From Prevotella sp. oral taxon 475 (lineage in GTDB: Bacteria > Bacteroidota > Bacteroidia > Bacteroidales > Bacteroidaceae): DNA of 64,000 nt. The stretch lies in the NCBI RefSeq assembly GCF_018127805.1, contig NZ_CP072334.1, positions 1,962,001 to 2,026,000 of the forward strand, given 5' to 3'. A program made the position numbers and the translations under genes. Shown here piece by piece: positions 54,694-55,047 of the stretch. The notes beneath the pieces were generated by a model, which saw only the letters and a program-made list of their open reading frames with translations, made no database searches and had not been told where the DNA came from. Positions within the stretch are counted from its first letter, which is position 1. Each line of letters opens with the position of its first letter.

Positions 54694-54770
54694 AATTCTC
54701 TAATATTTAATTGATGAAACTTCGGTGTGAATTCGCTTTCCGACACTTGGCGAAAGAGCATGAAAAGAGA

Positions 54771-54800
54771 AGCAAAGGGAACTCCGTGGAGCCCTTTGCT
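54771..54800 (-). terminator. Terminator-like hairpin in leader copy 4
   Basis: AGCAAAGGG pairs with CCCTTTGCT, with inner CTCC/GGAG pairing, followed on the transcript strand by TCTCTTTTC, 78 nt before the peptide start codon. Confidence 0.68.
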
Positions 54801-54874
54801 AATAGGGGTTGCGCTCACTTCGCGCGCGCGTAGAGAAAAGCTAAAAAATCTTACACTACAATAGGTGCGAATAT

Positions 54875-54929
54875 TGTGTGTGTGTGTGTGTGTGTGTGTG
54901 TGTGTGTGTGTGTGTGTGTGTGTGTGTGT
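54875..54929. repeat. (TG)27 dinucleotide microsatellite
   Basis: Pure TG repeat, 27 units plus one base, the longest of the four; CA on the transcript strand of leader copy 4. Confidence 0.97.
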
Positions 54930-55047
54930 AAGGTAGTCATTTTCTGGGAGACTACCAAGGAATGGGCGTTAAAAGATGCAGAAAAGTTCGCCCCTTTCTG
55001 CTCCTTTTGATGCTGCCGATATGTCAACACATTCTGTTTCACGGCGG

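Follow-up and report, generated by a model that had tools for sequence, protein, structure and literature searches.

CA-repeat leader elements, mostly upstream of genes for likely surface proteins, in Prevotella sp. oral taxon 475 and other Bacteroidales, candidates for phase-variable attenuation

The window analyzed here, a stretch of 64,000 nucleotides from Prevotella sp. oral taxon 475, holds four homologous copies of an element in which a leader open frame runs into an array of CA dinucleotides, followed by a terminator-like hairpin and a gene (Table 1). The preliminary description of the window had counted 25, 12, 15, and 27 units in the four arrays and had followed a single leader frame into each of them, and we obtained the same result. 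The genes behind copies of the element encode either secreted-looking BspA-type leucine-rich-repeat proteins or a protein of 59–79 amino acids together with a likely surface lipoprotein, the lipoprotein and secretion signals being judged by eye. Searches of Pfam and NCBIfam with the 79-residue first product of copy 4, the one small first-gene protein tested, gave no match, and the 613-residue second product had no match in Pfam. When eight further downstream proteins were tested, three matched LRR_5, one matched Mfa_like_1, and four had no Pfam family. First genes often encode 59–79 residues with a common look, ..Y..P.. and then an acidic end (54454–54693, L003–L006, L032–L034, and many relatives). 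A known Rfam leader or riboswitch was rejected as an identity for the elements, since the window contained no Rfam match at gathering score. The window also carries tandem arrays with units of approximately 41–42 bp whose sequences differ (20437–20655, 24708–24898, 46248–46437, and 59096–59321), and runs of 8-bp TTGACAAG/AGTTGACA-like units (22694–22725, 39912–39954, 42563–42714, and 57422–57473).

The order of parts is TTTG, a gap of approximately 20 nt, TAnnTTTG (a pair that we take to be the Bacteroidetes-type promoter consensus), the leader frame, a hairpin (T1) with a U-rich tail within the leader frame, and the (CA)n array; past the array come stops soon after it in most other frames, a CGCG-type box, a second hairpin (T2) with a U-rich tail, and the gene. 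In the own genome, the TAnnTTTG box was present upstream of the array in 37/37 rows and the full promoter-like pair in 36/37, and no row (0/37; L014 gives two rows) had a second TAnnTTTG box between array and gene. In 123 of 124 T2-bearing elements the array is entered by an open frame of 25 codons or more, taking the best of three frames, and the array itself encodes His-Thr in all three frames. Directly before the array lies an extra inverted repeat (54929–54960 in copy 4), which is GGTAGTC..GACTACC in that copy and of the TTTGG..CCAAA type in others, its sequence varying from copy to copy. The CGCG-type box (54821–54830 in copy 4) recurs between array and T2 in relatives whose spacers otherwise differ; the box belonged to the order-wide search pattern.

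Table 1. Positions of the element parts and genes of the four copies within the window.
Copy	Feature	Position	Strand	Details
4	Promoter-like pair	55048..55079	-	TTTG 55076-55079, 20 nt gap, TACCTTTG 55048-55055; from sequence
4	Leader open frame at the present 27 units	54851..55042	-	GTG to TAA, 63 aa
4	Hairpin T1, within the leader frame, then ATCTTTT	54978..55001	-	Covariation, 32 representatives
4	Array (CA)27	54875..54928	-	
4	Post-array stops, two of three frames	54851..54858	-	TAG 54856-54858, TAA 54851-54853
4	CGCGCGCGCG box (CGCG-type)	54821..54830	-	Recurs in relatives; part of the search pattern for relatives
4	Hairpin T2	54771..54800	-	U-rich tail 54762-54770; covariation, 20 representatives
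4	Third frame, from the array through T2 to a TGA overlapping the gene ATG	54690..54874	-	ATGA, 54690-54693
4	First gene, 79 aa	54454..54693	-	
4	Second gene, 613 aa	52635..54476	-	Likely surface lipoprotein; signal judged by eye
1	Leader open frame as present	3053..3235	-	(CA)25 at 3072-3121; -7 box 3241-3248
1	Hairpin T2	2960..2998	-	Through frame would end at 2926
1	Gene, 415 aa	1642..2889	-	Weak BspA-type LRR_5 match, 17.1 bits (cut-off 27.7)
2	Leader open frame, at present in a through frame	15328..15639	+	
2	Array (CA)12	15442..15465	+	-7 box 15315-15322; T2 15541-15570
2	Gene, 500 aa	15647..17149	+	BspA-type LRR_5, 48.9 bits
3	Leader open frame, at present in the through frame	37578..37886	+	
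3	Array (CA)15	37692..37721	+	-7 box 37565-37572; T2 37796-37827
3	Gene, 478 aa	37914..39350	+	BspA-type LRR_5, 109.7 bits

Searching the own genome (2.56 Mb, one contig) at the DNA level gave 43 pieces matching copy 4. When all runs of at least five CA units were searched (37 + 3 places) and then inspected, 40 elements were found, of which 37 have arrays with a longest run of 8–36 units and three (L030, L035, and L037) are degenerate; two more CA runs of five units each (L259 and L260) lie outside the family. Among 150 genomes of the same GTDB genus at least seven, the own genome included, had a match, a lower bound, as four candidates were scored in each. A pattern scan across the order gave at least 120 stretches, some of them chance matches in unrelated genomes; the matches listed included Segatella maculosa, Hoylesella enoeca, H. 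marshii, Prevotella micans, Alloprevotella tannerae, Phocaeicola oris, Bacteroides pyogenes, Dysgonamonadaceae, and termite-gut Prevotellaceae. When whole genomes were searched, 40 pieces matched in H. enoeca, 23 in S. maculosa, and 33 in H. marshii (pieces, not elements), and one scan found no copies on viral contigs. Distant relatives in termite symbionts have kept the leader, the array, and the box, some of them without a strong T2. Elements from termite-gut metagenome-assembled genomes (L111, L113, L146, L155, and L169) have a second type of leader, which reads ..EYFGTIFV just ahead of the His-Thr run and is followed by a CA array and CG box of the usual kind. For the analyses of frame, 190 rows with array and box were reduced to the 122 that had a T2 motif and whose leader frame was single and clear, two of the 124 T2-bearing elements being left out by the leader rule; the 68 dropped rows include termite-symbiont elements without the T2 motif, contig-end pieces, and CA/CG runs occurring by chance in unrelated genomes (e.g. 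L065, L114, L162, and L167).

The stems of both hairpins covary. In T1, changes on both sides were seen in 10/10 pairs among 32 representatives, a set from which three of 35 (L068, L127, and L241), judged to be without a clear T1, had been omitted, which favours the result; none of 500 shuffles reached the covariation score, and 87.5% of cells paired, compared with 42.6–58.5% when slid. In T2, both-side changes were seen in 7/12 pairs among 20 cluster representatives, the covariation score was again reached by 0/500 shuffles, and 87.9% of cells paired vs. 42.7–59.8% when slid, although T2 had been found through a CAAAG..CTTTG-type motif and the conservation of its core is partly by choice. Further pair types in T2 showed no excess over shuffles (101/500). 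T1 and T2 are predicted to act as transcription terminators.

Some of the frames that leave the array reach or pass T2, and others do not. Among the 122 elements from several species, one downstream frame was open past T2 (the through frame) in 104, two were open in 15, and none in three. In the own genome, where the degenerate arrays L030 and L037 were left out of the scoring, 38/38 elements had at least one such frame, 35 of them exactly one and three of them two. The preliminary description held that exactly one frame passes the hairpin in each window copy. This is the case in copies 1, 3, and 4; in copy 2, one of the three own elements with two through frames, the open frames stop 174 and 124 nt past the array and the hairpin lies at 75–105 nt. 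The through-frame ends that it had given for copy 1 (2926), copy 2 (15639), copy 3 (37886), and copy 4 (ATGA) were recovered; copies 2 and 3 are currently in a through frame and copies 1 and 4 are out, and 26 units would bring both of the latter in. Shuffling showed that a single sequence has at least one open frame by chance with P = 0.43–0.99, and thus four homologous copies prove little. At the level of cluster representatives, at least one open frame was found in 20/20, compared with 14.0 expected from dinucleotide shuffles (p = 0.0005), and exactly one in 14/20, compared with 10.0 expected (p = 0.055).

We then compared the synonymous share of single changes in the leader frame with that in the two other frames. 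The values were 0.356 vs. 0.334 and 0.161 in the own genome, 0.245 vs. 0.295 and 0.200 in H. marshii, 0.176 vs. 0.235 and 0.440 in H. enoeca, 0.285 vs. 0.169 and 0.188 in S. maculosa, and 0.319 vs. 0.249 and 0.237 when pooled, so that an excess in the leader frame was inconsistent between species. Past the array, the share was 0.397 in the through frame vs. 0.330 and 0.241, a weak lean from 14 own, non-independent copies. The encoded text that had been described as alike between copies is indeed alike, but mostly as likeness of the DNA. Selection on the leader peptide itself is not clearly supported by these figures, the shares being inconsistent and the lean past the array too weak.

Both the repeat number and the frame that goes with it differ from copy to copy, and also among metagenomic alleles of a single locus. 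Among the elements with a single open frame, the through frame was chosen by 12 of 104 arrays, whereas one third would be expected (p = 5.8e-7); without H. enoeca the count was 11/76 (p = 3.4e-4), and without H. enoeca and the own genome 4/44 (p = 3.1e-4); the relatedness of the copies makes these and the other p-values of this paragraph too small. The own genome alone had no significant bias (7/32 in the through frame, permutation p = 0.31), and when hairpins were located element by element, 10/38 own elements were now in a through frame. Permuting n within H. marshii gave p = 0.05; within-species permutation was uninformative in S. maculosa and H. enoeca, because their copies mostly share frames. 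In H. enoeca, 26/30 arrays have n = 1 mod 3 (n = 4, 7, 10, 13, 16, 19, and 22), and without the 16 arrays of n = 10 this still holds for 10/14 (p = 0.004). Such three-unit steps are not expected from one-unit slippage without selection. Considered by itself, the phase of the leader where the array ends was uniform in S. maculosa (p = 0.19), H. marshii (p = 0.47), the own genome (p = 0.72), and P. micans (p = 0.61). The two OFF phases are unequal among the 104 elements (63 vs. 29), the commoner one being one unit short of the through frame; as a conjecture, insertion-biased slippage combined with selection against ON would give this phase.

A protein search with a through-frame leader returned 70 relatives, and a second search one more. 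By their tails, these 71 proteins comprised 51 through-frame, 18 short, and two other products, shares that carry no meaning, as the first query was itself a through-frame product. Among metagenomic proteins, the locus recognized by the flank of L006 was seen in each of the three frames: P0009 has the through tail, P0032 (like the own genome) has ..SHLL, and P0035 has ..FAPIVV, though metagenome assemblies may give wrong array lengths. The bias against the through frame, the keeping of an open frame, and the alleles in all three frames together indicate that the frame across the repeat matters.

On this basis we consider it probable that the leader frame set by the repeat decides whether ribosomes run through T2, resulting in phase-variable attenuation of the downstream gene. 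Slippage in the CA array would be likely to change n and so to set the frame that ribosomes follow toward T2. In the through frame, the ribosome would follow the polymerase over T2, hold the nascent RNA, and keep the hairpin from forming (ON). In the other frames, it would meet a stop, usually less than approximately 30 nt past the array and mostly about 50 nt before T2; with the ribosome gone early, T2 would fold and stop transcription (OFF). T1, situated within the leader frame, is predicted to stop transcripts when there is no translation. We infer that ribosomes translate the leader, that the number of repeats can change in the course of a single culture, and that ON corresponds to the through frame; as a rule, one of the three frames would allow transcription to reach the gene.

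Classical leader-peptide attenuators, such as those of trp and his, combine a leader frame with a terminator ahead of biosynthetic genes. The elements described here share the leader frame and, as predicted, the terminator, and they have a His/Thr-rich stretch, but the genes behind them are not biosynthetic. Since all frames of (CA)n read His-Thr, codon supply, unlike in trp and his, cannot tell the switch states apart.

A closer parallel is the pil1 locus of Streptococcus gallolyticus. According to the consulted sections of Danne et al. (2014; PMC3894217), changes in a GCAGA repeat that are out of frame lengthen a leader peptide, which then extends as far as a hairpin terminator or past it, and transcription rises; this logic was demonstrated with start-codon, terminator, and stop mutants and expression measurements, and the same pattern was reported for pil3. 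As far as those sections describe them, both systems have a tandem repeat in the leader frame, next a hairpin terminator, predicted in the present case, and a gene, often for a likely surface protein here, behind it, and in both the repeat number sets the frame, so that the leader ends before the hairpin or runs to or through it. The low state of most cells at pil1/pil3 can be likened to the mostly off-frame arrays here. The streptococcal systems, as given there, use GCAGA at two pilus loci, with two of three frames high, whereas the Bacteroidales elements use CA repeats at 40 loci in another phylum, with usually one of three frames through, and have the additional hairpin T1 in the leader and the CG box. 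The likely mechanism is phase-variable attenuation, a principle known, from the same sections of PMC3894217, from S. gallolyticus pili and here proposed for approximately forty loci in another phylum.

In the contingency loci of Neisseria and Haemophilus, as treated in the accessible portion of a 2025 review of phase variation (PMC11868660), simple repeats likewise set the frame, but they lie inside coding genes, whereas the repeat described here belongs to a leader rather than to the surface-protein gene. The same portion covers the invertible promoters of Bacteroides, which belong to the same order; on/off control of many surface operons, as there, is likewise predicted for the present elements, but no inversion was seen in their anatomy, and in all own copies scored the promoter points toward the gene. 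In a term search of that portion of the review, leader peptide, attenuation, gallolyticus, Prevotella, and dinucleotide were all absent, and in the open-access literature (PMC) we found no report of such leader switches in Bacteroidales.

The main rival to attenuation is translational coupling, in which a leader ribosome ending near the ATG restarts there, T2 is a spacer or a blocker of the start, and transcription is not the switch. The through-frame stop overlaps the gene start as ATGA in copy 4 and several other copies, which is what coupling would favour. We compared frames in the 63 elements of the own genome, H. marshii, and H. enoeca that have a single open frame and whose gene starts 50 nt or more past T2. 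A point within 40 nt of the ATG or beyond was reached by 58/63 through frames vs. 94/126 other frames (Fisher p = 0.004, homologous copies). By median, however, the first stop after T2 came no later in the through frame (p = 0.94 in the own genome, 1.0 in H. marshii, and 0.18 in H. enoeca); the frame is kept open up to T2, and T2 has covarying stems and a U-rich tail, all of which speaks against coupling. The earlier claim that the frame ends near the gene is therefore not borne out by the median first stop, and the looser 40-nt count leans weakly in its direction. We regard coupling as an unlikely replacement for attenuation, on top of which it could also act.

It is also conceivable that the switch works in reverse, the early stop near the CGCG box being the expressed state and read-through silencing the gene. 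Early-stop phases do dominate the sequenced genomes (92/104), but the precedent, in the sections of PMC3894217 referred to above, runs in the opposite direction. A ribosome at the early stop, which is mostly situated about 50 nt ahead of T2, would be too far away to cover the hairpin, and no antiterminator fold was noticed on informal inspection; such a reversal thus appears quite improbable. Least probable of all is that the frame is irrelevant and the CA and CG runs are DNA or RNA spacers (Z-DNA, protein binding, or a Rho loading site) whose length tunes expression: such runs alternate purine and pyrimidine, Rho favours C-rich RNA that is unstructured, and the frame model assigns no role to the CG box, but the three-unit steps of H. 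enoeca and the scarcity of arrays in the through frame follow n modulo 3 and not length.

The core of the preliminary description, that repeat number sets the leader frame and thereby run-through of the hairpin, has thus gained independent support, the through frame being the presumed ON state. The support comes from the 40 genome copies, the order-wide relatives, the covarying hairpins, the repeat-number bias against the through frame, the alleles of one locus in all three frames, and the experimental precedent in S. gallolyticus, as given in the sections consulted (PMC3894217). We give an even chance to a wider picture of forty independent ribosome-frame switches, in which one leader design has been copied genome-wide and kept across Bacteroidales, CA slippage toggles each surface operon via attenuation, and selection holds most loci off, many of them one unit short of on, so that one clone would seed a combinatorially vast set of surface types. 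If true, a large group of oral and gut bacteria that is better known for invertible promoters would have in this design one of its main means of surface variation. Its state would be readable from sequence, and a count of CA units would predict which surface genes are on.
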